Assembly: GCA_024398055.1 (NCBI GenBank)
Contig: CP073749.1
Location: 1,922,594-1,986,593, forward strand
Length of the DNA stretch: 64,000 nt
From: a bacterium SCSIO 12741
Lineage (GTDB): Bacteria; Bacteroidota; Bacteroidia; Flavobacteriales_G; Salibacteraceae
Reading direction: 5' to 3'
The position numbers and the translations under genes were made by a program. Position 1 is the stretch's first letter. Each line of letters begins with the position of its first letter. Below the pieces are notes generated by a model, which saw only the letters and a program-made list of their open reading frames with translations, did not search any database and was not told the DNA's origin. Shown piece after piece: positions 1-37,372 of the stretch.

Positions 1-20
1 CTCGAATTCTGAAAGTTCCC

Positions 21-56
21 CGCACCCGCACCCGCACCCGCACCCGCACCCGCACC
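21..56. repeat. Hexanucleotide tandem repeat, 6 copies
   Basis: Six perfect head-to-tail copies of CGCACC lie upstream of the AraC/GyrI gene. The tract is a slippage-prone microsatellite in a non-coding, C-rich leader. No function is evident. It could be a phase-variable spacer or a neutral repeat. Confidence 0.9.
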
Positions 57-81
57 CGTCCTCTCCCTCGTCCTCGCCTCT

Positions 82-99
82 CCCCGATGACCATCGGGG
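82..99. repeat. GC-rich hairpin flanked by direct repeats
   Basis: CCCCGAT (82-88) and ATCGGGG (93-99) form a perfect 7-bp stem with the 4-base loop GACC. The 9-base direct repeat CTCGCCTCT flanks it at 73-81 and 101-109. It resembles a small palindromic intergenic element and sits 33 bases upstream of the AraC/GyrI start. There is no T-tract, so a terminator is unlikely. Confidence 0.6.
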
Positions 100-132
100 T
101 CTCGCCTCTGATTTCTCTATTACTTTTGAAAA

Positions 133-1047
133 ATGCCCACAGCATCAACTACCCAAGAGGATTATCGGAAAAGATTGAACCAGGTGTTTGACTACATGGA
201 TAGGCACCTTGATCAGGAAATGGTATTGGCTGATGTAGCTGAAGTAGCGGCGTTTTCGCCTTATCACTTTCACCGGATTTTTAAGGCAATTACTGGAGAA
301 ACCTTACTTCAATACATTACCCGTCGTCGGATTGAAAAATCGGCGGCAGATTTAATTCATAAGCCTTGGAGTATAACGGAAATTGCCCTGAAATATGGGT
401 ATGCGGATAATGCTGCTTTTACCCGAACGTTCAAGAAATTCTACCAAATCAGTCCATCGGAATTTAGGAATCAAAACCCGCATCACTTTAGCAAGATTCG
501 CCAACTGAAGAGCAAGAATGGCCAAGCCTACCCGGACCTCGAAAAATACATTTGCGAGCTGGAAAACCTAAAAAAATGGATAACCATGAACGCAAAAATT
601 GAAATCAAAAATTTCCCGGAAAGAGAGTTGGCATACGTCTCCCATTTTGGAGATCACAACGTGGCCTCTGCCTTTCAAAAACTGATCGCCTGGGCCGGAC
701 AAAAAGGGCTAATGACCCCCGATGCGAAATTACTCACACAATACCACGACAGTTTCAAAGTAACCCATCCAGACAAGGTTAGGCTGAGTGCCTGTATTGT
801 CCTAAACGAGCCGATCGAAGTTGAAGGCGAAATAGGAAGGTCACAACTTCCGGGCGGGAAGCACATCGTGGGCCGCTTCGAAATCGGGCTGGAGCAATAT
901 GAAGCCTCCTGGACAAGCCTGTTCCTTTGGATGAATGAAAATGGCTACGAAAAATCAGATCAGAATCCTTTCGAAATCTACCACAACAACTTTCAGGAGC
1001 ATCCCGAAAAAAAGAGCATCGTAGATTTCTGCATTCCGATTATTTAA
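133..1047 (+). CDS. AraC-family transcriptional regulator with GyrI-like effector domain
   Basis: The 304-residue protein combines an N-terminal AraC/XylS double helix-turn-helix (about residues 10-110, including the recognisable YHFHRIFKAITGETL and YADNAAFTRTFKKFYQISPSEFR segments) with a C-terminal GyrI/SbmC-like small-molecule binding domain (about 150-304). This SoxS/Rob-like layout normally activates genes in response to hydrophobic or toxic compounds bound by the GyrI fold. The gene stands alone and its nearest downstream neighbour is convergent. A TAnnTTTG box lies at 121-128, only four bases before the ATG. The ligand and the targets cannot be read from the sequence. Confidence 0.88.
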   Translation: MPTASTTQEDYRKRLNQVFDYMDRHLDQEMVLADVAEVAAFSPYHFHRIFKAITGETLLQYITRRRIEKSAADLIHKPWSITEIALKYGYADNAAFTRTFKKFYQISPSEFRNQNPHHFSKIRQLKSKNGQAYPDLEKYICELENLKKWITMNAKIEIKNFPERELAYVSHFGDHNVASAFQKLIAWAGQKGLMTPDAKLLTQYHDSFKVTHPDKVRLSACIVLNEPIEVEGEIGRSQLPGGKHIVGRFEIGLEQYEASWTSLFLWMNENGYEKSDQNPFEIYHNNFQEHPEKKSIVDFCIPII

Positions 1048-15537: not shown

Positions 15538-18513
15538 ATGTTTCTTAGATTACCCCTTACCCTTTTTGGAGTGCTATGCAGCTTGTGTTTATGGTGCCAG
15601 TCCATTCAGCATTGGACCGAACATGAGCAGCTTTCCGACCGTGCCGTCAATGCGGGATTGCAGGGAAGTGATGGGTTTATCTGGCTGGCTACCTGGAACG
15701 GTCTCGATCGATTTGATGGCTACGAATTTCAGCGTTTCGGAAGAAACACAGAGGTTGCCCTTTCTTCCAACTATGTGAATGACCTGGTTGAAGATCAGGA
15801 TTCCATCCTTTGGTTGGCCACTGAAGATGGGATCAATGCTTTAGACCTTCGATCTTACACTTTGAAGGTTTATTTTCCTAAGTCCATTAGCGGTAGCCAG
15901 CGATTTGTTTCAATTCATTGCTCACAAGATGGAACCGTATGGGCGGCCAATCAACTCGGTGATTTGTTTGCCTGGACCGAGGGGCGATCGTTTGAAAATG
16001 TGACCAACCCGAGTGACTCTTTGGGATCTTTTGGCTCCGGGGCCATCTTAGCTGATGACGGAAAATACCTGTGGTTAGGTACGGAGGCCAATGGATGTTT
16101 TCAGGTGGATTTGAAATCCAGGGGCATCCACAAAGCCCATTTGCAAAATACCTTTTGGAAAGTTTGGAATTTGGGAAATACCTCGGGTGGAGACATCCTG
16201 ATTCATGTCGAGAATCAATCCTTTTTATACGATCCTACCGGAGACACTTTGGTGCCGAAAAATTGGCCTGTCCCAGAGTCGGTTTATCAAAACTATGTGG
16301 ATTATAAAGGAGATCAATGGATTATTGGTGAAGAGCGAAAGCAGATTTGGAAATTGGATGGTCAGGGCGAAATGGAGCGCCTGGAAATTGGGCAGTTTGA
16401 CCCGGGAAGCAATGTCCATTTTTTTCAGTTTTTCGAAGACCATTCACACAACCTTTGGATGTGTTCCAACAACGGTCTTTTTAAAGTAACCAACGAATCC
16501 ACCCGATTTCGAGCCCGGTATGGTTTAGGTGATTCGGCTATGAACAACCCCATACCAAGTTATCGAGGTTTTTATGAAGACACCAACGGAGATCTCTACT
16601 TCTGCAGCTATGGTGGACTTTATGTCTGCCGCCAGGGGGCTCGGAAGGCCCAGAAAATGATTCCCAACACCTCTTACGGTTTCTACACACTGTTACCTCA
16701 TACTTTAGACTCCCTTTGGCTGATTACCGAGGGAAATGGAGTGATGAGCGTGCACAAACAAAACTTTGGATACACGACCTACCTCCATCCGCTTTCAGAC
16801 CAGTATCGGCACAAGTATCAGTATTTCATTGCTGGGTTTGAAGACCCCAAGGATGGAACATTTTGGTTGGCCGGTTATTCTGGTGTGCAAGGATTTGATC
16901 CCGTTCGGAGAAAGTTTTTTGATCGACCCGTGGTATTGGATGGTAAGGACCACAGTCAATTTCGTATCAAACAGTTTTTTGTTTCTTCCGACCAGCATCT
17001 TTGGTTGGCTGGTGCCGAGGGACTTGTAGAATTGGATGAGAACCGAAAACCTATTCGATGGATGCAATCCGGAGCCCAGGACTATGGAATTCTAAATGGA
17101 AATGAGATCAATTCGATTGGAGAAGGGAAGGATGGTAGCATTTGGATAGGGCAGGCCGATGGTGGGGTAGACCGCCTGAATCGGGAAACAGGAGAAGTAA
17201 CCAATTATTCTAAAGAAAGCGGACTCTGCGATAATAAAGTCGGGGCACTTTTGATTGATGGGAATGGCCATGTATGGGTCGCTACGAATTTTGGACTTTC
17301 GGTCATTCATCCGGAAGAAAACCTAATCTTCAACTATTACGGAGATGATGGTTTGGCCCACAATGAATTCAATCATGGTTCGGCGCTGCTACTCAGATCG
17401 GGGCAGTTGCTTTTCGGTGGGGTGGATGGAGTGAGCCTATGTCAGCCCTTGGATACCCTGGACCAACCGCAAACCCACATTCTTTTATCCAGTGCCGAAT
17501 ACTTCAACGAGTCGGATAGCCTGGTGCGCCTTTTTGGTCGAACCAATATTGCGTCTGGAATTAGTTTACCGGCCAACAATCAGCACCTGAACATTCGTTT
17601 TGCTTATACCGATTTCCTAAGAATTGGAAGAAATGTGTATACCTACAAACTGGAAGGCTACGACAAGGATTGGAGCTTTTTGGGTACCCAAAATCAAGTG
17701 CGTTTTGCCTCTCTTCCTGCTGGCGATTACAACTTGATTGTGAGAGGGGCTGGCTCCAAAGGATCTTGGAGCAAGGAGGAAGTTGTAATCCCCATTCATG
17801 TGGCTCAAATCTTTTACAAATCGCCGTGGTTTATTCTTGCTGTTTTGGCCCTGTTTGCTTCCATTGCTTGGTACATTGTGCGTCAACGCCTGGAAAAATA
17901 CAAGGAACTGGCTCAGATGCGTATTCACATTTCCTCTGATTTGCACGATGATGTGGGCTCTGTACTTACCCGGGTGGCCATGCAGGCTGAATTTATTGAA
18001 GATGAAGTGAGTCCCGAACAGAAGCCGGTATTAATTGGAATAGTGGAAAGCTGTAGAACGGCCTTATCCAATATGCGTGATGTGGTTTGGAGTATCGATG
18101 CCCGGAATCTGGATGTGGTCAGCCTCTTTGATAAAATCAATGAGCATACCACACGAATGTTTGAGAATAGTCAATTTACGGCAGCAGTTCATTTGGATAA
18201 GGGATTGGAAACCATTCCTCTAAATCCAACCGAGAAGAAGGAGTTATTCTTTATTTTTAAAGAATCGGTCCACAATATCCTACGGCACTCGAATGGAGAT
18301 CAGGTACATGTTCATGTACATCACGATGGAAAATTCCTGGAGCTCTCTATTTTTGATAACGGTAGCCTGGATGCAAATCAGGGAAAGGCAGGCAGCGGAT
18401 TAAAGAATATGGAAATGAGGGCCGAAAGTATTGGAGCCCAATTGTCCATTTCCACCGAAAAGGGATTCGAGGTCAAGGTTGCCAAACAAATTCGCCGCAG
18501 TTGGTGGAACTAA
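15538..18513 (+). CDS. Two-component regulator-propeller sensor histidine kinase
   Basis: This 991-residue sensor has a signal peptide (cleavage near residue 21), a long periplasmic double propeller made of Reg_prop repeats (DGFIWLATWNGLDRFDG, DSILWLATEDGINALD, GSIWIGQADGGVDRLN), a Y_Y_Y domain (YTYKLEGYDKDWSFLG), and one transmembrane helix at about 763-783. A HisKA_3 dimerisation domain follows, with the phosphorylated His at residue 803 in SSDLHDDVGSVL. A HATPase domain completes it (FIFKESVHNILRHS; DNGS...GSGLKNM). It should detect an extracellular ligand, possibly a glycan as in Bacteroides hybrid sensors, and phosphorylate the NarL-type regulator encoded 10 bases downstream. Confidence 0.92.
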   Translation: MFLRLPLTLFGVLCSLCLWCQSIQHWTEHEQLSDRAVNAGLQGSDGFIWLATWNGLDRFDGYEFQRFGRNTEVALSSNYVNDLVEDQDSILWLATEDGINALDLRSYTLKVYFPKSISGSQRFVSIHCSQDGTVWAANQLGDLFAWTEGRSFENVTNPSDSLGSFGSGAILADDGKYLWLGTEANGCFQVDLKSRGIHKAHLQNTFWKVWNLGNTSGGDILIHVENQSFLYDPTGDTLVPKNWPVPESVYQNYVDYKGDQWIIGEERKQIWKLDGQGEMERLEIGQFDPGSNVHFFQFFEDHSHNLWMCSNNGLFKVTNESTRFRARYGLGDSAMNNPIPSYRGFYEDTNGDLYFCSYGGLYVCRQGARKAQKMIPNTSYGFYTLLPHTLDSLWLITEGNGVMSVHKQNFGYTTYLHPLSDQYRHKYQYFIAGFEDPKDGTFWLAGYSGVQGFDPVRRKFFDRPVVLDGKDHSQFRIKQFFVSSDQHLWLAGAEGLVELDENRKPIRWMQSGAQDYGILNGNEINSIGEGKDGSIWIGQADGGVDRLNRETGEVTNYSKESGLCDNKVGALLIDGNGHVWVATNFGLSVIHPEENLIFNYYGDDGLAHNEFNHGSALLLRSGQLLFGGVDGVSLCQPLDTLDQPQTHILLSSAEYFNESDSLVRLFGRTNIASGISLPANNQHLNIRFAYTDFLRIGRNVYTYKLEGYDKDWSFLGTQNQVRFASLPAGDYNLIVRGAGSKGSWSKEEVVIPIHVAQIFYKSPWFILAVLALFASIAWYIVRQRLEKYKELAQMRIHISSDLHDDVGSVLTRVAMQAEFIEDEVSPEQKPVLIGIVESCRTALSNMRDVVWSIDARNLDVVSLFDKINEHTTRMFENSQFTAAVHLDKGLETIPLNPTEKKELFFIFKESVHNILRHSNGDQVHVHVHHDGKFLELSIFDNGSLDANQGKAGSGLKNMEMRAESIGAQLSISTEKGFEVKVAKQIRRSWWN

Positions 18514-18523
18514 AAAGAGCAGG

Positions 18524-19144
18524 ATGAATCTAATCATTGTTGAAGACGACGCCGGTATTCGGGATACCTTGCACAGATACCTCGAACGAGACACCGATCA
18601 TTTTGAGTTGATCTCCAGCCATGAGAGCATGGAAATGCTGTTTCAAAATGCACCGGACTTTACGCCCAATATCGTTGTATTGGATATCAACCTTCCCGGA
18701 ATTTCGGGCATCGAAGGTATTGGTGAGGTAAAGAAAAAATGGCCCGAGGCTGAGGTGGTAATTGTATCTGCCTTGACGGACAGCGAAAGCATTTTCAAGG
18801 CCATCTGTTCAGGCGCATCGGGATACATCGATAAAGAAATCTCACTGAGCAAAATCAAAGAATCCTTACTCTCTCTGAAAGAGGGAGGATCTCCCATTAC
18901 CCCATCCATAGCACGTAAAGTGTTTGACTATTTTCAACCGTCCAACCACGTCGAAGAGGGCCTGACCGACCGTGAAAAAGATATCGTTAGAGGAATTGTC
19001 GATGGCTTAAGCTACAAGCTCATTGCCGATCGTTTGGATATCTCCATCGATACTGTCCGCAAATACATTCGCCGGGTGTATCGAAAATTGGAAATCAACA
19101 GCAAAGGCGAACTCATAGCTCGCTACCACAAGTCTCGAATCTAA
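18524..19144 (+). CDS. NarL/FixJ-family response regulator
   Basis: The ATG at 18524 gives 206 residues beginning with the receiver hallmark LIIVEDD. An in-frame upstream ATG at 18431 lies inside the kinase gene and is rejected. The receiver has the phospho-acceptor Asp54 (VVLDINLPG), Ser82 and Lys104 (GYIDKEIS). The C-terminal LuxR-type HTH (LTDREKDIVRGIVDG, then DRLDISIDTVRKYIRRVYRKL) spans about 140-200. It is the cognate partner of the propeller kinase. Its stop interlocks with that of the convergent AarF gene in the tetramer CTAA. Confidence 0.92.
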   Translation: MNLIIVEDDAGIRDTLHRYLERDTDHFELISSHESMEMLFQNAPDFTPNIVVLDINLPGISGIEGIGEVKKKWPEAEVVIVSALTDSESIFKAICSGASGYIDKEISLSKIKESLLSLKEGGSPITPSIARKVFDYFQPSNHVEEGLTDREKDIVRGIVDGLSYKLIADRLDISIDTVRKYIRRVYRKLEINSKGELIARYHKSRI

Positions 19145-21314: not shown

Positions 21315-21380
21315 TAACTTTTTGCATCCCACGCGAAAAGGTCCCTCTACTTTTAATTCTCGTTTTTCTAAAGACTGTTG

Positions 21381-24300
21381 ATGATGAAAACAAAAATTAC
21401 TTCGCTATTGTGTTTTGGAGCAGTTCTAATGGGACTGATGAGCTTCTTGCAGGTTCAAGCTCAATGCCCCGCTCCAACGGTTTCTGCAAATGGACCCACG
21501 ACCTTTAATCAAGGTGGGTCGGTAACTCTTACAGCATCGGCTTCTAACCAAAGTGATGCAGGAAATGCACTTAACTTCTATTCAAGCTATGTAACGGTTC
21601 CGCACAACAGTGTGTTTACCGCCATGGCAAACAGCATGACGATAGAAGCATGGATCTATCAAACCGACAACGTTAACAATGCGATTGTGGACAAGGGGAA
21701 CTACAACTTCTTGTTCATGGCCGGACCCAATGGACAATCTGGACTTGGGTTTTACAACACCAGCGGTGGCTGGACCTATGGAAGTGGGGTGGTGCCCACC
21801 AATCAATGGGTTCACGTGGCCATGACCTGGAATCAAAGTACGGGGTACATTTCTTTTTACCTCAATGGATCTTTGATGAGTACCCACTATAGAGGTGGAT
21901 CGCTTAACTACGATTCGGGTAACTTGAATATTGGTCGCCAAGACCCGGCAAGTTGCCAGTGTAATATAATGAGTGGACAGATCGATGAGTTGCGTCTTTG
22001 GAATGTGGCTCGATCAGGATCGCAAATTGCGAGTGATTATTCCACCAGCATCAATCCGGCAACAAGTGGATTGGTGGCCTATTGGAAATTTAATGAAACC
22101 AGTGGTTCTTCTACTTATGATGCAACGTCCAATGGAAACACCGGTACCCTGGGAGGGAATTCACGGGTTAGTTCTTCGGCCAGTGTGTCCAACAAACCCG
22201 TTTCTTACTCTTGGTCCAATGGGAATAGCGGGTCTTCAACTACTATTTCTACCTCAGGTTCCTATACGGCTACAGCTACCTATTCCAATGGTTGCACAAG
22301 CAGTGCCTCGGCTGCTACTTCGGTAAATGTAATCACTGAAAATGCCCTTCACTTCGACGGGGTCAATGACTATGTAAATATTGGAAATCATTCCTCCTTA
22401 AATATTAATCAGGCCATCACCGTAGAAGCTTGGGTGAAGCCTAACAGCACTTCTTCTGAAGGTCCCGTTCTATTTAATGGCGGTGGCTGGGGAATTCCTG
22501 GATACGCGATGCACTTTTATCGCGGAAATGTTCGAGTAGAGCTTAATTCTGGTTCTGGCGGAAAGGCAGTAGACAATCCTTATAGCTTAACGGGTTGGCA
22601 TCACATCGCGTTTACTTTCGATGCTTCAACCGATAAAATTCTCTTTTATGTGGATGGGGTTCTTCAACCCGTTCAAGGGACCTGGTCGGGAACCATGGGA
22701 ACCTATAATGGAAGTGGAATAATTGGAGCTTACCTGGGCGGTAGTCAATCTTATTTTGATGGCGCCATAGATGAGTTGAGGATTTGGAATTATGCACGCT
22801 GCGGCGCTGAGATTAACCACACCAAAAATTGCTACCTCAATGGCAATGAATCCGGCTTGGTGGCCTACTATAAAATGGACCAAGGCGTGGCCAATGGAGC
22901 TAACGGTTCAATCGGCACCTTGACCGATGAGTTGGGGAACAGTAACGGAACCCTTTACAATATGGCCAAGTCTGGAAGTTCGTCCAACTTCGTTAGTGGA
23001 AGTGGAACATCCGGAACCTGCACCGCCTATTCCTTGGCTGTGAATGCAGGAAACGATATTACTATTCAAGAAGGCCAAGCCGTTACTCTTACCGGAAGCG
23101 GAGCAACCAGCTATTCCTGGAATAATGGAGTGGTAAACGGAGTTCCTTTTTACCCAACATCCACCCAAACGTACACCGTGACAGGCTCGGCCAATGGTTG
23201 CTCAGCCACTGATCAGGTAACCGTAACCGTATTGCCGAACAATGCTTTGAATTTTGACGGGATCAATGATTACGTTCAACTGGGCTCGGCTCTAACTTAC
23301 GGTTCAAGTAGCCTTACAGCAGAGTTTTGGGTTCGCGTACCTAAAATTGGTCAAGGTAATTTGGTCAATAATGAACGAGTAGGAATCCTGATGGGTAACT
23401 ACAGCTCCAACCCGAACCAGAATTTTGAAATTCACGCCCAAGGCCAAGTGAGAATCTATTGGAACAACGGGCAGATTAATGCTTTCGGAACCAAAGATCT
23501 AAGGGATAACAAATGGCACCGTCTGACTTTTGTTCGAGATAAATCGGCTAATCGTTTTTACGCTTACATCGATGGTGTTTTGGAAATTAATCATGGAACG
23601 GCTGGTTCAGACATTAACCTCACTTCAACGCCCCGAATCGGCGGTGACCGCAGAAATTCTTCGGGCGGACCATCCTTCCACGGATGGATGGATGAAGTAA
23701 GAATCTACAACTATGCCATGAACGCCGGTCAAGTTGCCAATAAAGCCTGTGTGCTCAATGGAAACGAACCTGGGTTGATCCACCATTACACCTTTAACAA
23801 TGGTACTGCCAATGGAAACAACGCAGGAGTAACTGCCGTTGTCGATCAGGCAGGAAACAACAATGGAACCCTAATCCAATTCGGACTCAATGGATCGGCC
23901 TCAAACTGGACTTCCAGCGGAACGTGTAACAGCGACCCTATCGCGGTGGCAGGTTCTGATCAATCGGTTCCGGTTTCTGCCGTTTCATGTTCGGCAAACG
24001 TAACTCTGAACGGTAGCGGATCTTCAGATCCGGAAGGTCAGGCCTTGACCTACGAATGGAAAAATGGATCAAGCGTGATTGGAACATCAGCTTCCATATC
24101 CGTGACTCCAGGCTTAGGTACTCATACCTATGTACTTACCGTATTTGATGTTCACGGAGCTTGCTCCATGGATACCATGCAGGTGACCGTTTCGGATAAC
24201 ACCGCACCTACCATGGCAGCCAGTAACGTAACGGTTTATCTGGATGGAAACGGCTCTGCTTCGATTACTACAGCAGACGTTGACAATGGATCCTCTGATA

Positions 24301-27300
24301 ATTGTGGCCTTGCGTCATTGGCCCTGAGTCAGACCAATTTTTCTTGTGCAGATGTAGGCTCTGGATCCACATTGGGAACCAGTTCTTCTAATCCGGGTCT
24401 CGATTGTGCGACCATTAAGAAAACAGATTCTTCAGCCACCGACGGAACCTACTGGATCGATCCTGACGGAACTGGAGGAGCAGCACCTTACCAGTGCTAC
24501 TGTGACATGACTACCGATGGTGGTGGTTGGATGCTGGTAGCTCACCAAAAAAATACTGGAGCCTTTGCTCCCTATAACTCCAATCTTAGCCCCACATTTA
24601 ACTACGGAACCTACGTGGCCGACCCTAAGGCCAGCACCGATTTCTACCGGAGCTATTCCAACGTTAGTCATGATCAATTGATGTTTGCCAGTGGAGACAA
24701 CGCCAAGTGGTTGGTTTTGGATCCTACCTGCGCCCGGGCCGTAACCGGAACGCAGTCACCAAACTGTCAGGTTATCGCCTCAGGTGGAACCGGAATTACC
24801 GCTGGTGGATATACCAATGTGCTATTCAGATCATCGCAACCTGAAGACCCATGGATTGGTGGTGAAGGTTCTCACTCGAACAACATATTTAACGGTATGC
24901 TCTGGGGTGAAAATGGCTGGGGTCCTGGTACCCACGGTTCCTATAAAAATGCGCACCAGGGTTTGAACCTTTTTGTAAGAAATTCTCAAGCCACGGCAGC
25001 CTCAGGTGCTGGCGGCGTATCCGTTACTTTAACCGGTACAGACAACAGTGGAAATACTGCTTCGGCAACAGCCATTGTAGACGTAAAAGATACCACTGCG
25101 CCCAATTTGACTACTCAAAATACAACCCTGTATTTGGATGCGAATGGTCAGGCCACTTTGGCTTCAACCGATGTAGTTAGTTCGTCCAGCGACAACTGTG
25201 GTAACCCCACATTATCCTTGAGTCAATCGGCATTTACCTGTGCCGATGCAGGAGGAGACCCCGTGGATCAAAGTCAGCCCAGCGGATGGTTCCTGGCTGG
25301 TGGATTTAGAGGAGCCGGACAAAGCTTTAAGGCAGGTCAAACAGGGCCTCTCACCGATATTGAGATCATGGCTCGGATACATCCTTCCAATGTGACTTGT
25401 ACGCTTGAATTGCGCACCGGGTCAAATCCAGTGGGAGGGACGCTATTGGCATCTGCTCCAGTTGCCTTGACCACAACCGTGACTACGTACAAAGTAAACT
25501 TCCCAACTCCGGCTGTAGTAACGGCGGGTCAGAATTATGTATGGGTGGTGAAAAACGGGTCTCCAAGTGGATTGGTGTACTTCCACAACGATTTGGGCAA
25601 TCCTTACCCAGATGGTGACTTGATTCAAGAAATCAGCGGTTCATGGAACCCTAATTCCAATGTTGATGCTTATTTCAAAACCTTCGTTTCCACGGCAAAA
25701 ACAGTTTCTGTAACGGCAACCGATGCCCAGGGTAACACAGCCACATCCACAGCTGATGTTTCCATCCTGGATACTTTGGCGCCGGTCGTTCAACCTCAGA
25801 ATTTAACCGTGTACTTGGGTGCCGATGGTACGGCCACGATTTCGGCCGGCGACGTGAGCACCACCAGTGACAATTGCAGTGTAGTTAGTGTAACCCTTAG
25901 CGATACCGCTTTTGATTGCAGTGATGCAGGGGTTCATACCGTAACAATCACGGCTACCGACGCCTCTGGAAATGTAGGAACAGGTCAAGCCACAGTTACC
26001 GTCATTGACAACGTGCCACCACAAGCCTCGGCAAATGATTTGACCGTTTATCTGGATGCCAATGGTTCTGCTTCAGTGACCGTGAATGATGTAGATAGCA
26101 ACTCTACGGATAACTGTTCAATAGCTTCGCGAACATTGTCGGTAACGTCTTTTGGGTGTAGCGATGTTTCCACCGGAAATTCAAGTGCTGGATCGCCAAA
26201 TGGATTGTACTTCCCAAGTGCTTTCAAGCTCCACAGCATGAATAATAATGGTACTGGTTTCAGCACCCCTGTAACCAATGGCGGCCAATATATGAGCGGA
26301 GCAGCTTACGATATTTCAACGAACAAATTGTACTGGATTGATGCTTCTTCGAAGAGGTTGATGAAGTCCGATCAAAACGGAGCAAACCAGGTAACGCTGG
26401 TTTCTTCAGGAATGGGAAGTCCTCGTGACGTAGCCATTGATCCGGATGGACAATATGTTTATTTCAGTGACTACGGAGGGCAATACATTAAACGGGTGAA
26501 TACCGACGGGACAGGACTTACTACCCTGGCTTCTGGATCTGCCGTTCGTCCACTGGGTATTTACCTGGATCGGGTAAATAACCATATCTATTGGGCTGAT
26601 TTGGGATCTGGATCCATCAAAAGAATGAGCACCAACGGTACAGGAATTACCACCGTCGTTTCCGGTCAGGGTGATTGCCGCGATGTTGCTTTTGATGCTG
26701 CTACTTCAACCCTATACTGGAATAGAGGAAATCAAGGCCGTATTTATAAAAAAGTGGGTGCCGGAAGCGTAACTACTTTGGTGAGCGGATTGGTTCAGCC
26801 TTACGGTGTTTTCTTCAATGATGGAGATGGTAAAATCTATTTCACCGAAACATCCGGTGCACAGCGGGTAAGTGTTATTAATGCAAATGGTACCGGTAAA
26901 ACGGTTTTGAAGACAGGATTGAATAACCCGGTATACATTTCGGTTGGACAGGCTGCCAGCTCTTCTTCTTCAGGCGTGTCAACGGTACTCACCGTGACCG
27001 ATGTTGCTGGAAACAGTTCAACAGCAACTTCCATCGTTACCGTTTTAGATACCATTGCTCCAAGCGTTTCTTGTCAACCCGACACCTTGCTGTTAACTGC
27101 AAGTGGAACCGTTTCAAATTCGGCTAATGACTTGGTAGCCTCATCTTCGGATAACTGCGGAGTTGCCAGTATTTCGGCCAGTAAAACAACATTTACTACG
27201 GCTGACGTGGGTGATAATTCTGTGGTAGTTACAGTAACCGATAGCTCTGGTAATTCGACTACCTGTACCGCAAACGTTTATGTAATTGAGCCTGCACCTG

Positions 27301-30300
27301 TGGCCCTTTGCCAGAATGCAACGATTTACTTGAATGCTTCTGGAAATGCAACCCTGGCGGTTGGCGATATCGATAATGGAAGTAACAGTTTGATTGGTTT
27401 ATCGTCTCTAACGCTTTCCAAAACAGCATTTAGTTGTGCAGACGTAGGCACCCAAACCGTAACCCTGATCGCTACCAATACCTTTGGTTCATCAGACAGC
27501 TGTACCGCTACAGTAACAGTAGTTGATTCTATTGCTCCGGTTGCTTTGACTCAAAACATAACTGTACAGTTGAACGCCGCTGGTACGGTATCCATCGCAG
27601 CTGCCGATGTTAATGACGGCTCGAATGACGCTTGCGGAATAGCGGGTATGACTGTTTCGCCAAGTTCATTTACCTGTGCTCAGGTAGGAAGCAATACCGT
27701 GACTCTAACCGTAACAGATAACAACGGAAACGTATCCACTCAAAATGCGACAGTAACGGTACAAGACAATGTTCAACCCGTTGCATCGACCAAGAATATC
27801 ACCGTTCAATTGGACTCTACAGGTAACGCCTCAATTGTTGCAGGGGATGTAAACGACGGTTCAAATGACGCTTGTGGAATCGCCAGTATGACGGTTGCAC
27901 CGAGTGCCTTTACTTGTGCTCAGGTTGGAAGCAACACGGTTACTCTAACTGTAACGGATAACAATGGAAACGTGTCTACTCAGAATGCTACGGTAACCGT
28001 TCAAGACAACGTGGTTCCAGTTGCAATTGCCAAGAATATTACCGTTCAGTTGGACGCTACGGGTAATGCCTCCATCACAGCCGCAGATGTAAACGATGGC
28101 TCAAGTGATGCTTGTGGAATTGCGAGCATGACCGTGGCACCAAGTGCCTTTACCTGTGCTCAGGTTGGAAGCAATACGGTGACCTTAACGGTTACGGACA
28201 ACAACGGAAATGTTTCCACTCAGTCTGCCACTGTAACGGTACAAGACAATGTAGCTCCAGTAGCCTTGACAAAAAACATTACGGTTCAGCTGGATGCAAC
28301 GGGTAATGCTTCTATCACGGCAGCAGATGTGAACGATGGTTCAAGTGACGCTTGTGGAATCGCGAGTATGACGGTTGCACCTAGTGCCTTTACTTGTGCC
28401 CAGGTTGGAAGCAATACGGTGACTCTAACCGTAACGGATAACAACGGAAATGTATCCACTCAGTCTGCAACTGTGACAGTACAAGATAACGTAGCTCCGG
28501 TAGCTTTGACCAAGAACATCACGGTTCAATTGGATTCGACTGGTAATACTTCGATCGTTGCAGCGGATGTAAATGACGGCTCAAATGATGCTTGTGGAAT
28601 CGCGAGTATGACGGTTGCACCAAGCGCCTTTACTTGTGCTCAGGTTGGAAGTAATACCGTGACTTTGACGGTTACGGACAACAACGGAAATGTTTCCACT
28701 CAGTCTGCCACTGTAACGGTACAAGACAATGTAGCTCCAGTAGCCTTGACAAAAAACATTACGGTTCAGCTGGATGCAACGGGTAATGCTTCTATCACGG
28801 CAGCAGATGTGAACGATGGTTCAAATGACGCTTGTGGAATCGCGAGTATGACGGTTGCACCAAGCGCCTTTACCTGTGCCCAGGTTGGAAGCAATACGGT
28901 GACCCTAACGGTTACAGACAACAACGGAAATGTATCCACTCAGTCTGCAACTGTGACGGTACAGGACAATGTAGCTCCAATAGCTTTGACCAAGAACATC
29001 ACGGTTCAATTGGATTCGACCGGAAACACTTCGATCGTTGCAGCGGATGTAAACAATGGTTCAAATGATGCTTGTGGAATCGCCAGTATGACCGTTGCAC
29101 CAAGTTCGTTTACCTGTGCTCAGGTTGGAAGCAATACAGTGACTTTGACCGTAACGGACAACAACGGAAATGTTTCTACGCAATCTGCTACGGTAACCGT
29201 TCAGGATAACGTAGCGCCGATCGCCTTGGCGAAAAACATAACGATCCAGTTGGATTCAACTGGGAATGCTTCAATCGCAGCAGCCGATGTAAATGATGGT
29301 TCAAACGATGCTTGTGGAATCGCCAGCATGGCCGTTGCACCCAATGCTTTTACTTGTTCGGAAGTGGGTAGCAATACCGTAACACTTACCGTGACCGATA
29401 ACAACGGCAATGTGTCCTCAACCTCATCAACAGTTACAGTTCAGGACTTGATTGCTCCTGTGGTGATCACCAAGAACATTACGGTTCAACTTGACTCCAC
29501 CGGACAAGTTTCCATCAATGTGAATAATGTCGACGATGGATCGAACGACGCCTGTGGTATCGATACCCTCACGGTATCACCGGCGACGTTCACTTGTAGT
29601 GAGGTGGGCGCGAACACGGTTACCCTGACTGCAACGGATGCTAATGGCAATGTGTCTTCGGCCACTGCTACGGTAACCGTTCAGGACAATGTAGCTCCTG
29701 TGGTCGTTACTCAAAACTTGAATGTGACCTTGAACGCAACAGGTACTATCTCTATCACGGCCAGTCAAGTAGACAATGGCTCAAGCGATGCCTGTGGAAT
29801 TGATACCATGGTTGTATCGCCGAGTAGCTTCACCTGTGCCGATCGAGGCAGCAACACCGTGACGCTTACGGTAACGGATAACAACGGAAACGTATCCACT
29901 GAAACCGCTCAGGTAACCGTTGAAGGAAATGCTGAATTTGAAACAACAACAGTGGTTACCCAGGTGGATTGTAAAGACAATGCAACTGGAGCTATCGACC
30001 TGAGCATTTCAGGCGGAACATTGCCTTACACTTATAGCTGGAGTAATGGTGATACCACCGAGGACATCAGTAATCTACTCGCAGGAACTTATCAGGTGAC
30101 TGTATTGGATGCCAATTCCTGTGATATCACTTTGGGTGACACCGTTACGGAGCCACCATTGCTCACTGCTTCGATTGCATCACTGTCTTATTCTTCATTA
30201 AACACCAATGCCTTTGGTAACCAGACCCACATCGTGTTAGGCTATGGTGGACAGGATTCAATCCAATTCTTTGGAAGTGCTACTGGTGGAACTCCAGGTT

Positions 30301-31145
30301 ATAGCTACAGCTGGTTCCCAACGACCGATTTGGATGACCCAACAAGCCCGAACCCAGTGTTCAAGCCAAGCTTGCCAGAGGATTCTTGTCATGTATATCA
30401 CTACACCCTAACGGTGACGGATAGCAACGGTTGTACGGCTACCTATTCCGTAGACGTGAACGTGGCCAATGTGGCTAAGACCAAAGTGTATTACGTGTGG
30501 AAATACGTGAAAAACAAAGGCAAGAAGGGTAAGAAAGGTAAAAGAGGTAAATGGGGTAAGAAAGGCAAATGGGTGAAAGTAGAGTACAAGGTGGAAAAAG
30601 TCATCATGTGCAAAACCATCACTTACACCAAAAAGCACAAATGTCACTATAAGTGCCATGGCCACCGCCACCACCGCAATTGCAAACACAAAGGTGGAAC
30701 CTATACTTACACCAAGGACATTAAGATTGAGGTAAGTAAATGGGCTGTTAAATCCCTATTGAGATGCGGATACAAATTGGGTAACTGCAGCTCTACCTGT
30801 GGATCTTCTAAAGGCGGAACCCGTTCTGATTTCATCGCCGATGAGGTGGAAGAAGACATCCTGCCGGATGAGGTGACTGGACCCGTAGTATCCGTATTCC
30901 CGAATCCTAACGACGGAGCCTTCACTATTGACCTTAATCAGTTGAATGAAGATGATCAGATTATGATTCAAGTTTTGGATCCTTCAGGAAGACTGGTTTA
31001 CGAGCAGAATCTGGAGAATACAGGTCAGGAAGTTACAGAACGAATTGACCTCAACGAACAGACTTACATGACTACTGGAATGTACATTCTACGCATTCAA
31101 GTGGGAGATCATCAACAGTACGAACGTATACAGGTGGTAAAGTAG
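21381..31145 (+). CDS. Giant T9SS-secreted multidomain adhesin (LamG, HYR-like repeats, YWTD propeller)
   Basis: The product has about 3,254 residues. The ATG at 21381 or 21384 starts a signal peptide ending VQAQ; the in-frame TTG at 21378 is ignored. In order it has: three LamG/concanavalin-like domains (approx. 21.58-22.13, 22.34-22.88, 23.24-23.93 kb), a PKD-like domain (23.94-24.20), sixteen HYR-like repeats (24.20-29.94), a SprB repeat (SISGGTLPYTYSWSNGDTTE, 29.95-30.16), a PKD-like segment, a Lys/Cys/His-rich segment (30.48-30.83), and a T9SS type A sorting domain (VFPNPNDGAF, 30.89-31.15). Three HYR units carry a large domain inserted at the same loop: a fibrinogen-like domain, an unassigned beta-sandwich, and a YWTD/LDLR-type propeller. 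It is probably a cell-surface, glycan- or protein-binding adhesin. A terminator follows. Confidence 0.92.
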   Translation: MMKTKITSLLCFGAVLMGLMSFLQVQAQCPAPTVSANGPTTFNQGGSVTLTASASNQSDAGNALNFYSSYVTVPHNSVFTAMANSMTIEAWIYQTDNVNNAIVDKGNYNFLFMAGPNGQSGLGFYNTSGGWTYGSGVVPTNQWVHVAMTWNQSTGYISFYLNGSLMSTHYRGGSLNYDSGNLNIGRQDPASCQCNIMSGQIDELRLWNVARSGSQIASDYSTSINPATSGLVAYWKFNETSGSSTYDATSNGNTGTLGGNSRVSSSASVSNKPVSYSWSNGNSGSSTTISTSGSYTATATYSNGCTSSASAATSVNVITENALHFDGVNDYVNIGNHSSLNINQAITVEAWVKPNSTSSEGPVLFNGGGWGIPGYAMHFYRGNVRVELNSGSGGKAVDNPYSLTGWHHIAFTFDASTDKILFYVDGVLQPVQGTWSGTMGTYNGSGIIGAYLGGSQSYFDGAIDELRIWNYARCGAEINHTKNCYLNGNESGLVAYYKMDQGVANGANGSIGTLTDELGNSNGTLYNMAKSGSSSNFVSGSGTSGTCTAYSLAVNAGNDITIQEGQAVTLTGSGATSYSWNNGVVNGVPFYPTSTQTYTVTGSANGCSATDQVTVTVLPNNALNFDGINDYVQLGSALTYGSSSLTAEFWVRVPKIGQGNLVNNERVGILMGNYSSNPNQNFEIHAQGQVRIYWNNGQINAFGTKDLRDNKWHRLTFVRDKSANRFYAYIDGVLEINHGTAGSDINLTSTPRIGGDRRNSSGGPSFHGWMDEVRIYNYAMNAGQVANKACVLNGNEPGLIHHYTFNNGTANGNNAGVTAVVDQAGNNNGTLIQFGLNGSASNWTSSGTCNSDPIAVAGSDQSVPVSAVSCSANVTLNGSGSSDPEGQALTYEWKNGSSVIGTSASISVTPGLGTHTYVLTVFDVHGACSMDTMQVTVSDNTAPTMAASNVTVYLDGNGSASITTADVDNGSSDNCGLASLALSQTNFSCADVGSGSTLGTSSSNPGLDCATIKKTDSSATDGTYWIDPDGTGGAAPYQCYCDMTTDGGGWMLVAHQKNTGAFAPYNSNLSPTFNYGTYVADPKASTDFYRSYSNVSHDQLMFASGDNAKWLVLDPTCARAVTGTQSPNCQVIASGGTGITAGGYTNVLFRSSQPEDPWIGGEGSHSNNIFNGMLWGENGWGPGTHGSYKNAHQGLNLFVRNSQATAASGAGGVSVTLTGTDNSGNTASATAIVDVKDTTAPNLTTQNTTLYLDANGQATLASTDVVSSSSDNCGNPTLSLSQSAFTCADAGGDPVDQSQPSGWFLAGGFRGAGQSFKAGQTGPLTDIEIMARIHPSNVTCTLELRTGSNPVGGTLLASAPVALTTTVTTYKVNFPTPAVVTAGQNYVWVVKNGSPSGLVYFHNDLGNPYPDGDLIQEISGSWNPNSNVDAYFKTFVSTAKTVSVTATDAQGNTATSTADVSILDTLAPVVQPQNLTVYLGADGTATISAGDVSTTSDNCSVVSVTLSDTAFDCSDAGVHTVTITATDASGNVGTGQATVTVIDNVPPQASANDLTVYLDANGSASVTVNDVDSNSTDNCSIASRTLSVTSFGCSDVSTGNSSAGSPNGLYFPSAFKLHSMNNNGTGFSTPVTNGGQYMSGAAYDISTNKLYWIDASSKRLMKSDQNGANQVTLVSSGMGSPRDVAIDPDGQYVYFSDYGGQYIKRVNTDGTGLTTLASGSAVRPLGIYLDRVNNHIYWADLGSGSIKRMSTNGTGITTVVSGQGDCRDVAFDAATSTLYWNRGNQGRIYKKVGAGSVTTLVSGLVQPYGVFFNDGDGKIYFTETSGAQRVSVINANGTGKTVLKTGLNNPVYISVGQAASSSSSGVSTVLTVTDVAGNSSTATSIVTVLDTIAPSVSCQPDTLLLTASGTVSNSANDLVASSSDNCGVASISASKTTFTTADVGDNSVVVTVTDSSGNSTTCTANVYVIEPAPVALCQNATIYLNASGNATLAVGDIDNGSNSLIGLSSLTLSKTAFSCADVGTQTVTLIATNTFGSSDSCTATVTVVDSIAPVALTQNITVQLNAAGTVSIAAADVNDGSNDACGIAGMTVSPSSFTCAQVGSNTVTLTVTDNNGNVSTQNATVTVQDNVQPVASTKNITVQLDSTGNASIVAGDVNDGSNDACGIASMTVAPSAFTCAQVGSNTVTLTVTDNNGNVSTQNATVTVQDNVVPVAIAKNITVQLDATGNASITAADVNDGSSDACGIASMTVAPSAFTCAQVGSNTVTLTVTDNNGNVSTQSATVTVQDNVAPVALTKNITVQLDATGNASITAADVNDGSSDACGIASMTVAPSAFTCAQVGSNTVTLTVTDNNGNVSTQSATVTVQDNVAPVALTKNITVQLDSTGNTSIVAADVNDGSNDACGIASMTVAPSAFTCAQVGSNTVTLTVTDNNGNVSTQSATVTVQDNVAPVALTKNITVQLDATGNASITAADVNDGSNDACGIASMTVAPSAFTCAQVGSNTVTLTVTDNNGNVSTQSATVTVQDNVAPIALTKNITVQLDSTGNTSIVAADVNNGSNDACGIASMTVAPSSFTCAQVGSNTVTLTVTDNNGNVSTQSATVTVQDNVAPIALAKNITIQLDSTGNASIAAADVNDGSNDACGIASMAVAPNAFTCSEVGSNTVTLTVTDNNGNVSSTSSTVTVQDLIAPVVITKNITVQLDSTGQVSINVNNVDDGSNDACGIDTLTVSPATFTCSEVGANTVTLTATDANGNVSSATATVTVQDNVAPVVVTQNLNVTLNATGTISITASQVDNGSSDACGIDTMVVSPSSFTCADRGSNTVTLTVTDNNGNVSTETAQVTVEGNAEFETTTVVTQVDCKDNATGAIDLSISGGTLPYTYSWSNGDTTEDISNLLAGTYQVTVLDANSCDITLGDTVTEPPLLTASIASLSYSSLNTNAFGNQTHIVLGYGGQDSIQFFGSATGGTPGYSYSWFPTTDLDDPTSPNPVFKPSLPEDSCHVYHYTLTVTDSNGCTATYSVDVNVANVAKTKVYYVWKYVKNKGKKGKKGKRGKWGKKGKWVKVEYKVEKVIMCKTITYTKKHKCHYKCHGHRHHRNCKHKGGTYTYTKDIKIEVSKWAVKSLLRCGYKLGNCSSTCGSSKGGTRSDFIADEVEEDILPDEVTGPVVSVFPNPNDGAFTIDLNQLNEDDQIMIQVLDPSGRLVYEQNLENTGQEVTERIDLNEQTYMTTGMYILRIQVGDHQQYERIQVVK
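27538..29937 (+). repeat. Ten tandem 240-bp HYR-like coding repeats
   Basis: Ten consecutive units of exactly 240 bases (80 residues) start near 27538, 27778, 28018, 28258, 28498, 28738, 28978, 29218, 29458 and 29698. Each contains NITVQLD..G..SI...DVNDGS.DACGI, FTC..VGSNTVTLTVTDNNGNVS and TVTVQD. Two conserved Cys per unit (DACGI and FTC) could form a disulfide. The central units are nearly identical at DNA level and the outer ones diverge. Two more units upstream (27058 and 27298) keep the 240-base period but are more diverged. Confidence 0.95.
28258..29217 (+). repeat. 480-bp dimer duplication inside the HYR array
   Basis: The unit pair at 28258-28737 (types LDATGNASIT then LDSTGNTSIV) is repeated at 28738-29217 in the same order. 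About 157 bases are identical between 28188-28344 and 28668-28824, more than between adjacent units. This points to a recent duplication of a two-unit block. Confidence 0.8.
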
Positions 31146-34544: not shown

Positions 34545-35594
34545 ATGACAAGACGGGAAAGACGAATCGAACTCCTGGGTTTCAACGATTTCTGGTTGGT
34601 TCTCTTGGGTATTCCCGTGACTGGAATTTTGATTCCAATCGTCTTTTTCGATTTATTACCCACCGGAGGTATAGAATACTGGAAGTTTAGCTTAATCTCC
34701 ATCGGTTTTACTGCGGCTTACTGGTTAGGTGATCGAAAAATTTTGATCTACCTCCGGAAGAAGTTCCCTGGTTACTACAAGTACAATAAGAGGATTTTCC
34801 TACAAGCCATCGTTATCCTAACCTTTACACCTGGGATTTGTTATGCGGCGGGACTTTTACTTCCGGAATTACGAACCGAGCTTTCGCCTAAATACCACCA
34901 TGAACAATATCGATACTACCTGGTTAGTCTAATTATTACGCTGGCCATTACGGCCACCTACGAGAGTATTTACGCCATCTTTCTCTTACGAAATGCCACC
35001 CTGGAAGGAGAGCGTTTAAAAAAGGAGAATCTACGGTCTCAATTAGCGACGTTGAAGAGTCAGGTAAATCCGCATTTCCTGTTTAATAGTTTGAATACAC
35101 TGAGTTCCATTATTCCAGAGAACCCGGATCAGTCGGTGGAATTTGTTCAAAAGCTCTCCACGGTTTATCGATACATTCTGGAGATCCGAGACCGGGAATT
35201 GATTTCATTACAGGAGGAATGGAAGTGTATCGAAGCCTATCGCTTTTTGCTCAATATCCGGTTTGGAGAAAACCTAAGCATCGAAAACCACATTAGCCCA
35301 GAGGACATGGACAAGCATATCGTGCCCCTATCCCTTCAAATGCTTTTGGAAAACGCCATTAAGCACAATGTGGTGTCTAATAAACGGCCGCTAACGATAG
35401 AAATCGCATCTATCGAGAATGGTCGCTTGTTGGTTTCGAATAATTTGCAGCTCAAAAATCAGGTGGAAGCCTCTACTCAAACCGGACTTGAAAATATCAA
35501 TCGCAGGTACCGAATTCTCAATGGAGAAGAGGCCGAAGTCATTGTGAGTGAGACCCACTTTCGAGTGGCCTTACCCTTAATTGAAACGGAATAG
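34545..35594 (+). CDS. LytS-type sensor histidine kinase
   Basis: The 349-residue protein has four transmembrane helices in the first 160 residues and no large extracellular domain. A coiled linker leads to the His_kinase domain, with LKSQVNPHFLFNSLNTLSSII carrying the phosphorylated His in two overlapping motifs (NPHFLFN). The ATPase N-box is LENAIKHN and TGLENINRRY follows. The kinase partners the LytTR regulator encoded directly after it. The upstream TonB-linked receptor and the downstream propeller protein are candidate signal inputs. Confidence 0.9.
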   Translation: MTRRERRIELLGFNDFWLVLLGIPVTGILIPIVFFDLLPTGGIEYWKFSLISIGFTAAYWLGDRKILIYLRKKFPGYYKYNKRIFLQAIVILTFTPGICYAAGLLLPELRTELSPKYHHEQYRYYLVSLIITLAITATYESIYAIFLLRNATLEGERLKKENLRSQLATLKSQVNPHFLFNSLNTLSSIIPENPDQSVEFVQKLSTVYRYILEIRDRELISLQEEWKCIEAYRFLLNIRFGENLSIENHISPEDMDKHIVPLSLQMLLENAIKHNVVSNKRPLTIEIASIENGRLLVSNNLQLKNQVEASTQTGLENINRRYRILNGEEAEVIVSETHFRVALPLIETE

Positions 35595-35595
35595 T

Positions 35596-36354
35596 ATGCA
35601 GATTCTAATCATTGAAGACGAAAAGCCTGCTTCACGACGCCTGGAGCGAATGATCAAATCTCATCGGCCCAATTGGAAGGTGCTCGATGTGTTGGATACC
35701 GTGGAAGATTCAGTGAATTGGTTCCGCAACATGTCCTTGCCTGATTTGGTGTTTATGGATATTCAACTCGCCGATGGAATTAGCTTTAACATCTTTGAAC
35801 AGGTATCCATGACCTGCCCGGTGATTTTTACCACGGCCTACGACCACTATGCCATTCAGGCATTCAAAGTAAATAGCATTGATTATTTACTGAAGCCGAT
35901 CGATGAGGCCGAACTTCAGCAGGCCATTACCAAGTTTGAACAACGCAGTCAAGGGGATTCGATGAAACAAATGGATTGGATGAAGTTGGTTCAACAATCC
36001 ATCAAAGAGAATCCCTACAAGGAGCGCTTTTTGGTACGACTTGGCGATCAGCTCAAGTACATTCCAGTGGATCAAATTGCCCTGTTCTACTCGGAGCAGA
36101 GCACACCCTATCTGGTGGATTTCGATGGACGAAAGAGCTTGATTGATTATCCCCTGGACCAGTTGACCGAAATGCTTGATCCCAAGGAATACTTCCGCGT
36201 TTCTCGAAAGCTTATCGTCCATCACCGCAGCATCTCCAAGATCCATACCTGGTTTAACGGAAGGCTGAAGTTGTCGCTAAAACCTGCTGCTCCTTTTGAA
36301 ACTTTGGTAAGCCGCGATCGCGTGAATGCTTTTAAAGCCTGGCTCGATCAGTGA
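35596..36354 (+). CDS. LytTR-family response regulator
   Basis: The ATG at 35596 lies one base after the LytS stop and gives 252 residues. An upstream in-frame ATG inside lytS is rejected. The receiver starts QILIIEDEKPASRRLERMIK, with acceptor Asp in LVFMDIQLADG and Lys in DYLLKPID. The C-terminal LytTR DNA-binding domain (about 145-252) has FLVRLGDQLKYIPVDQI and FRVSRKLIVHH. LytTR regulators bind direct repeats near promoters. Its targets are not evident here. Confidence 0.92.
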   Translation: MQILIIEDEKPASRRLERMIKSHRPNWKVLDVLDTVEDSVNWFRNMSLPDLVFMDIQLADGISFNIFEQVSMTCPVIFTTAYDHYAIQAFKVNSIDYLLKPIDEAELQQAITKFEQRSQGDSMKQMDWMKLVQQSIKENPYKERFLVRLGDQLKYIPVDQIALFYSEQSTPYLVDFDGRKSLIDYPLDQLTEMLDPKEYFRVSRKLIVHHRSISKIHTWFNGRLKLSLKPAAPFETLVSRDRVNAFKAWLDQ

Positions 36355-36410
36355 TTCCCCGACAGGGCTAAGGTTTTTTCTATTATTTTTCGGCAACAAT
36401 TGGAGATGGT

Positions 36411-37370
36411 ATGAAGTGGGAAAATTTTGTGGTCGTAATCTTTTTGTTGCTCGCCTCACGGCTTGAAGCTCAACAGGTTCCCAATGTAATTGAGAATATT
36501 GACTACCTCGTTACTTTTTGCCCGGAAGCGTCAAAAAGTTATGGGGATGATGACTTTACCCAGGTTTTCTTCTTCGCTATTCCTGAATCTCACACTCGCC
36601 CCTTCTACATTCGGGTATATGATCCGGAAGTAGGTGGAGAAATTGACGCCAAACATGGTGGTGCGTATGATTCTAAGTTCCGCTATACCGTATTTGGTGG
36701 AAAAGGATGTTTTTCAGACGAAGCCAACCAAAGCGTAGAGCCCAATAACGATTTGCGCAAAGGAGTCATGTTGGCTACTAAAACCTTTACCAACGAAGCT
36801 CGATACGAAAACGGATGGTACACCTTTGGTCCGTTCAACCCCAAAGAAGGGGAGTACTCACCTGAGCAAAAAGCCCGTATTTTCAAGATTATTGCAGAAG
36901 GTTTGTCTGGAGATGATGGCAACTTGTACCGCTACTTTATCAGTCAAAATGTAGGGGCCAACAAAGCCATTCTGGGCGCCAATGCCTTTACTTACGAGTA
37001 TTCCTTCCGTATGAAATCGGAGCCGAGTTCAGTGGCTCACTTGTACCCCTTTCTTAGCCGTGATGTGGTTTCGATCAAGCAACACAATTTCGATTTCGAT
37101 TCCGATGGACAAATTCTGATTTACTCCGTGGCCAAAAACCGTCACGTATCTGCCACTTCCGGAAACGGAGATTGGGCAGAGCAGACCCATGAGATTGTAG
37201 ATCGGGAGAAAAATGCCAGCTTAGATATGCAATTTGTAAAAGCAGGTAACGCGGCCAACGATATGGTCGTATACATCACCAATCAGTACGATAAGCCCGT
37301 ACCCTTCTTCGCTATTCCGATTGGAGGGAAGCCGGCCTATGACTACAATTTACAGGTCAAAGTCAAATAG
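36411..37370 (+). CDS. Secreted protein of unknown function
   Basis: This 319-residue protein has a signal peptide (cleavage near Q21, LEAQ) and no lipobox or sorting domain, so it is probably periplasmic. The body is beta-rich and acidic. I do not recognise a family. It contains two similar-sounding elements, FFFAIPESHTRPFYIRVYDPE near the start and KPVPFFAIPIGG near the end (each partly quoted), which may mark a duplicated or closed beta fold. It lies 56 bases after the LytTR gene and 2 bases before the orphan propeller gene. Confidence 0.6.
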   Translation: MKWENFVVVIFLLLASRLEAQQVPNVIENIDYLVTFCPEASKSYGDDDFTQVFFFAIPESHTRPFYIRVYDPEVGGEIDAKHGGAYDSKFRYTVFGGKGCFSDEANQSVEPNNDLRKGVMLATKTFTNEARYENGWYTFGPFNPKEGEYSPEQKARIFKIIAEGLSGDDGNLYRYFISQNVGANKAILGANAFTYEYSFRMKSEPSSVAHLYPFLSRDVVSIKQHNFDFDSDGQILIYSVAKNRHVSATSGNGDWAEQTHEIVDREKNASLDMQFVKAGNAANDMVVYITNQYDKPVPFFAIPIGGKPAYDYNLQVKVK

Positions 37371-37372
37371 CC

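Follow-up and report, generated by a model that had tools for sequence, protein, structure and literature searches.

Three HYR-type repeats of a giant Bacteroidota protein are split around unrelated domains

The stretch of DNA analysed here (the window) comprises 64,000 nucleotides of the 5.1-Mb single-contig genome of bacterium SCSIO 12741, a member of the Bacteroidota (contig CP073749.1, positions 1,922,594 to 1,986,593). It contains an open reading frame (ORF) for a giant adhesin-like protein of 3255 aa (21378..31145), which, like all features of the protein given below, lies on the + strand. The listed start codon is TTG; an ATG at 21381 or 21384 stands before a stretch that, judged by eye, resembles a signal peptide. 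Pfam divides the protein into three stretches of LamG_3, a PKD-like unit, HYR-type units (16 by our count), a SprB repeat and a C-terminal tail of the type A kind used by the type IX secretion system (T9SS). This tail, a sorting domain at 30894..31133, matches PF18962 at 1.8e-12 and TIGR04183 with 42.4 bits against a cut-off of 23, a score that places the protein among T9SS type A cargo. We consider it probable that the protein as a whole is a T9SS-secreted surface adhesin, the putative adhesive role included.

Three of the HYR units are discontinuous. In unit 1, the N-terminal half (24195..24359, residues 940-994) is separated from the C-terminal half (25011..25088, residues 1212-1237) by a fibrinogen-like domain of the GGGWT/COLFI type, insert 1 (24360..25010, residues 995-1211). 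The halves of unit 2 (25089..25253, residues 1238-1292, and 25695..25769, residues 1440-1464) flank insert 2, a DUF4082-like, beta-rich domain (25254..25694, residues 1293-1439). After an intact HYR unit at 25770..26006 comes unit 3, whose halves (26007..26171, residues 1544-1598, and 26973..27047, residues 1866-1890) enclose insert 3, a YWTD/LDLR-type beta-propeller (26172..26972, residues 1599-1865). Uninterrupted HYR-type units, including the near-identical tandem array of the putative stalk, occupy 27048..29924. Partial HYR hits from the repeat start end at columns 30-65 and some of them extend into the insert, and hence the boundaries of N-halves, inserts and C-halves were set by eye. The original prediction had placed three HYR units here that are opened after the strand carrying the FxC motif, and its frame and coordinates prove correct to a few bases. 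Its account of an opened junction also stands, but its wording for the tandem array does not: the array reads FTCAQVGSN-TVTLTVTDNNGN, rather than FTCADVG-VTLTVTD.

That the two halves of each unit belong together can be seen from profile scores. The HYR model used has 79 columns and was built from 502 sequences from related proteins, none of them from the window's protein, with the caveat that its alignment columns were first seeded by the intact repeats of that protein. Rejoined, the halves of units 1, 2 and 3 score 104.6, 89.0 and 94.4 bits over columns 1-79, against 85.4, 70.4 and 72.4 bits for the N-halves alone and 24.3, 20.1 and 20.9 bits for the C-halves alone. In the control, where each N-half is joined to residues from either end of its own insert, the scores are 83.8-84.7, 70.5-71.6 and 71.3-73.5 bits, a gain of at most 1.2. 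Rejoining restores a match over the full length and insert residues do not, so each C-half behaves like the portion that its repeat lacks. Half-models, which include sequences from the window's protein, give scores within the 5-95% range of intact units for the N-halves (84.6, 69.8 and 71.8; range 54.3-86.6) and for the C-halves (23.8, 16.6 and 17.0; range 14.0-37.8). Furthermore, the extra length at the junction after the FxC strand lies between -2 and +7 residues in the 1010 units called intact (exactly 0 in 855 of them), while in the remaining nine it amounts to 48 and 147-267 residues, a bimodal distribution which indicates that the inserts are not due to chance.

One could suppose instead that the halves are linkers or domains in their own right, with the inserts as ordinary tandem domains beside them, as the small size of the C-halves (about 25 aa, scoring 20-24 bits alone) might suggest. 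We regard this as very improbable, given the full-length joined scores, the negligible gain in the control, the bimodal junction lengths, the high model confidence in both halves and the alignment of a solved domain across insert 1 (see below); we reject it on the rejoined scores and the junction lengths. Thus, we conclude that the halves of each split unit belong to one HYR repeat, as had been predicted. The Pfam model for HYR (PF02494, cut-off 21.7 bits) is passed by the unit at 27048-27284 with 23.3 bits and narrowly missed by the unit at 25770 with 20.9 bits; searched unjoined at E 0.1, the split units yield an HYR match in unit 1 only (14.1 bits). The repeats of this protein therefore resemble known HYR stalk repeats in that a unit without interruption scores above the Pfam cut-off and the rejoined split units match the HYR model, and differ from them in that three units are discontinuous.

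Structure prediction agrees with this assignment. AlphaFold2 was run on alignments of 50 tandem HYR triples, with one insert 2 homologue added for residues 940-1543, and 14 propeller rows and four of the five DUF4082 rows, which were misaligned in MAFFT, were dropped before prediction. For residues 940-1543 the mean predicted local distance difference test score (pLDDT) is 63.9, with HYR halves mostly at 93-98 (blocks of 95-98 in the N-half of unit 1); for residues 1465-1970 the mean is 82.0, with HYR halves mostly at 91-98 and the propeller mostly at 73-86. Strands and short helices follow one another in the split halves as they do in intact units. With VIA-align, whose Z values below 8 may reflect merely a common arrangement, residues 3-93 of 2c26 (a 91-residue stretch) lie on positions 1..300 of the model with 76 residues aligned at 2.7 A and Z 7.1, bridging insert 1, and the tandem Rib domains of 6s5y lie on positions 296..604 with 148 residues aligned at 4.7 A and Z 9.1, bridging insert 2. 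A search of solved structures with the HYR profile returned only two weak matches. The models suggest that in all three units both halves appear to form one immunoglobulin-like (Ig-like) domain. GhpA of Aureispira, a giant grappling-hook protein on the surface of a member of the Bacteroidota (PDB 9flu, 9flp, 9flw and others), is among the structural matches to the tandem units; the HYR profile does not match it at E 0.1, its root-mean-square deviation is large, and the resemblance is only that of generic tandem Ig-like domains.

The three inserts match three different families, in agreement with the claim that unrelated domains occupy the same HYR loop. Insert 1 matches COLFI and Fibrinogen_C, and passes the curated cut-off of GGGWT_bact (NF040941) with 73.4 bits against 30; the solved structures closest to its N-terminal part are intelectin-type lectins and fibrinogen chains. 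Used as a single-sequence query, it retrieves nothing at E 0.001 from 34 further genomes of the family or from 394 of the phylum. The GGGWT core profile does match within the class, in 12 of 246 genomes besides the window's; most of these matches, characterised by frame length, are in frames of 214-719 aa, while here the domain sits inside an HYR unit. Insert 2 had been called an unassigned beta-sandwich. The domain is not wholly without assignment, since it matches DUF4082 (PF13313) weakly, with 20.0 bits against a cut-off of 28.4, and is hence named DUF4082-like only. Its structural matches, among them a phage baseplate protein (9euj, Z 6.8) and a CBM6 module (1o8s, Z 5.5), are at the background level of the tool, and so we claim no structural family for it. 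Its closest relative, which is 57% identical, is inserted at the equivalent position in a different genus of the same family (a metagenome-assembled genome, or MAG, of a Flavobacteriales bacterium; its two MAG loci are the same DNA), and the relative in locus L087 has no Pfam match at 0.01. When the few-kb stretches of the eight other loci found with insert 2 were scanned, no HYR unit was detected, which argues that the module also occurs outside HYR repeats. Insert 3 passes Ldl_recept_b (PF00058) with 70.1 bits against a cut-off of 21, and over positions 140..396 of its model aligns with the propellers of LDLR/LRP proteins at Z ~30 and 2.2 A over ~252 residues; it has the same fold by structure, and differs in being bacterial and inside an HYR repeat. 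LDLR/LRP propellers have six blades. Because insert 3 aligns along such a propeller in full, its ends, which are modelled with low confidence, probably come together as an insert would need.

The original prediction had proposed a search for other adhesins with inserts after the FxC strand, and these exist among HYR-rich regions of relatives. We sampled such regions from relatives and from a sample of the class (HYR occurs in 145 of 395 genomes), so that the counts are biased toward HYR-rich regions; inserts in the first ~20 columns or the last strand are poorly detectable, and the three loops named below are those visible by this approach. The survey comprises 1054 HYR units from the window's protein and its relatives. 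Extra length does not exceed 20 residues in 1021 of them, while inserts of 139-278 aa are present in 17 and an insert of 48 aa in one. Left out of the insert count were a unit whose extra length is 23 residues and 14 others for which no C-half was paired; of these 14, 12 start within 60 residues of an ORF end and two read as intact with a divergent C-half. The 18 inserts are spread over 10 of 92 ORFs or ORF pieces, in families f1, f4, f16 and f90. Nine are in the loop after the FxC strand: the three of the window, one in L087 whose model length equals that of insert 2, two in L096 (228 and 48 aa), and 157 aa each in L093, L097 and L098. Six are in the loop before the FxC strand, namely C-type lectins in L038, L040 and L050 (PF00059 at 4.4e-21, 1.1e-20 and 5.5e-14) and inserts of 212-214 aa in three units of L067. 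The last three lie one loop earlier, and are propeller-like in L038 and L040 (Vgb_lyase, 29.7 and 33.3 bits, below the cut-off of 50) and 253 aa long in L096. No Pfam match at 0.01 was obtained for inserts of L096 (stretches of 228 and 269 aa) and L097, nor for the one copy scanned of the three in L067. Our conclusion from this survey is that the split-HYR arrangement recurs, and that the loop after the FxC strand is preferred, not unique. The claim of a loop that tolerates inserts is upheld, the same loop holding inserts in other families, but the idea that it is the sole site was too strong and is rejected, as two neighbouring HYR loops are used in relatives.

Two units of L096 (a 2887-aa ORF in genome G377) are unusual in composition: residues 2187-2517 form an HYR unit whose 253-aa insert bears acidic and basic runs, and at residues 2519-2646 the 48-aa insert after the FxC strand is Lys/Asp-rich, charged and of low complexity.

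This distribution bears on whether the inserts have been selected at all. HYR loops might take up domains by recombination simply because the fold and its termini permit it, with no selection for display; the inserts are rare and patchy, that in L096 of 48 aa is no domain, and insert 1 lacks single-sequence relatives in the family and phylum genomes searched, though its GGGWT profile occurs elsewhere in the class. However, those inserts whose family can be told are of lectin or receptor type, a second genus has kept insert 2 in the same position, and the 157-aa insert is present in three f90 genomes. We therefore think such neutral tolerance unlikely.

We favour instead a reading in which the HYR units would be the stalk of a T9SS-secreted surface adhesin. 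Three of these units would have opened up after the FxC strand, in the loop that leads to the following strand, to take a whole guest domain, after which the chain would return and complete the same Ig-like repeat. Fixed at both ends, the guest would presumably project sideways from the stalk, which may be stiff as originally proposed, and the guests (fibrinogen-like, DUF4082-like and LDLR-type propeller) may, judging by their families, bind ligands such as glycans or proteins. The split HYR domains thus probably hold putative binding modules out from the stalk. It is important to note that several observations weigh against this reading. In the AlphaFold2 models, insert 1 has pLDDT below 50, insert 2 reaches 64-79 in its middle only and is below 50 toward both ends, and insert 3 is below 50 in its first ~37 and last 10 residues. 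The structure alignments contained no homologue of insert 1 or insert 3, and MAFFT placed HYR triples across the split units, so that the alignments favour folding the halves together. Split units are a small minority of HYR units; and, as L038 and L040 are related, and likewise L093, L097 and L098, there have been fewer events than 18. YWTD-type propellers, present in 38 of the 198 class genomes covered and there mainly in short proteins, could have other roles, and insert 3 also passes DUF5050 (43.9 bits, cut-off 27) and SGL (29.7, cut-off 26.3), though not Vgb_lyase (27.4 bits, cut-off 50). As SGL and Vgb_lyase carry enzyme names, the inserts might be enzymes or other non-adhesive modules borne on the stalk. 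We find this rather improbable, given that LDLR/LRP-type propellers are what insert 3 matches best, both in sequence and in structure, and that intelectin and fibrinogen domains come closest to the N-terminal part of insert 1. LDLR/LRP proteins are receptors.

Display of modules by split domains is already known from RTX adhesins, in which Ig-like split domains project ligand-binding domains; as the main texts of PMC12077191 and PMC10865825 describe, a whole domain in AhLap and FrhA emerges inside one Ig-like domain, which closes afterwards, and AhLap carries several guests from different families. The same is found here, in that an Ig-like domain of the stalk is discontinuous and closes after the guest, by sequence and by models whose alignments favour closure, and by analogy the window's protein looks to work in the same way. 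The host repeat, though, is HYR, the guests are a fibrinogen-like domain, a DUF4082-like domain and a YWTD propeller, and, taken across relatives, inserts occur in three different loops of the HYR repeat. The secretion route also differs: the last 407 aa match no RTX family at E 0.1, so the protein is not of the RTX/type I kind, and end instead in the type A sorting domain. Neither HYR nor any word beginning Bacteroid- occurs in the main texts of the two papers, and no split HYR unit is mentioned in the titles and abstract openings searched; Graham et al. 2024 (Proteins 92:933), a general work on split domains, may cover other phyla. It is conceivable, though we rate it somewhat less likely than not, that the HYR repeats of Bacteroidota T9SS adhesins form a general socket system, convergent with RTX split domains, in which three loops of a single small Ig-like repeat accept receptor-like modules that can be exchanged (C-type lectins, YWTD propellers, fibrinogen-like and DUF4082-like domains, and others of no assigned family). 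Binding repertoires could then be swapped through the insertion of domains, with the stalk unbroken. If a split repeat marks a ligand-binding module, as argued for RTX adhesins, the binding modules of giant Bacteroidota HYR proteins could be read from sequence. The locus also offers a natural case of a small Ig-like repeat bearing very different globular domains in one loop, which is useful for work on adhesin evolution and protein display.

Other repeats may act as hosts as well. Upstream of the HYR units, the first LamG_3 domain (21546-22199) may be inserted in a split Ig-like unit of SprB/PKD type (21465..22337; N-half 21465-21545, C-half 22200-22337), which would be the fourth split host of the protein. 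The profile evidence is suggestive only: 45.1 bits joined, 9.4 for the N-half, 33.5 for the C-half and 37.1 for the control of insert end plus C-half. In loci L058 and L134, from genomes G016 and G525, weak GGGWT fibrinogen-like domains seemingly lie inside another Ig-like repeat, before its YxWSTG strand; the hosts score 50.2 (L134) and 43.4 bits (L058) joined and 41.2 and 40.5 bits for the C-half alone, a control-free comparison in which the gain for L058 is small. DUF4082-like domains directly after an Ig-like domain, possibly inserted, are seen in L079, L080 and L084/L121, the last two being from the window's own genome, with only the N-terminal host part recognised by profile.

Within the 3255-aa protein, a Lys/His/Cys-rich stretch at 30477-30698 (GKKGKKGKRGKWGKKGKW, HKCHYKCHGHRHHRNCKHK) precedes the T9SS tail and is unlike the remaining protein. 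Two-component regulators are encoded near the adhesin gene. Upstream of it, 15538-19144 encodes a Reg_prop/Y_Y_Y histidine kinase and a LuxR-type regulator; downstream, 34545-39937 encodes a His_kinase/LytTR pair and a Reg_prop protein.

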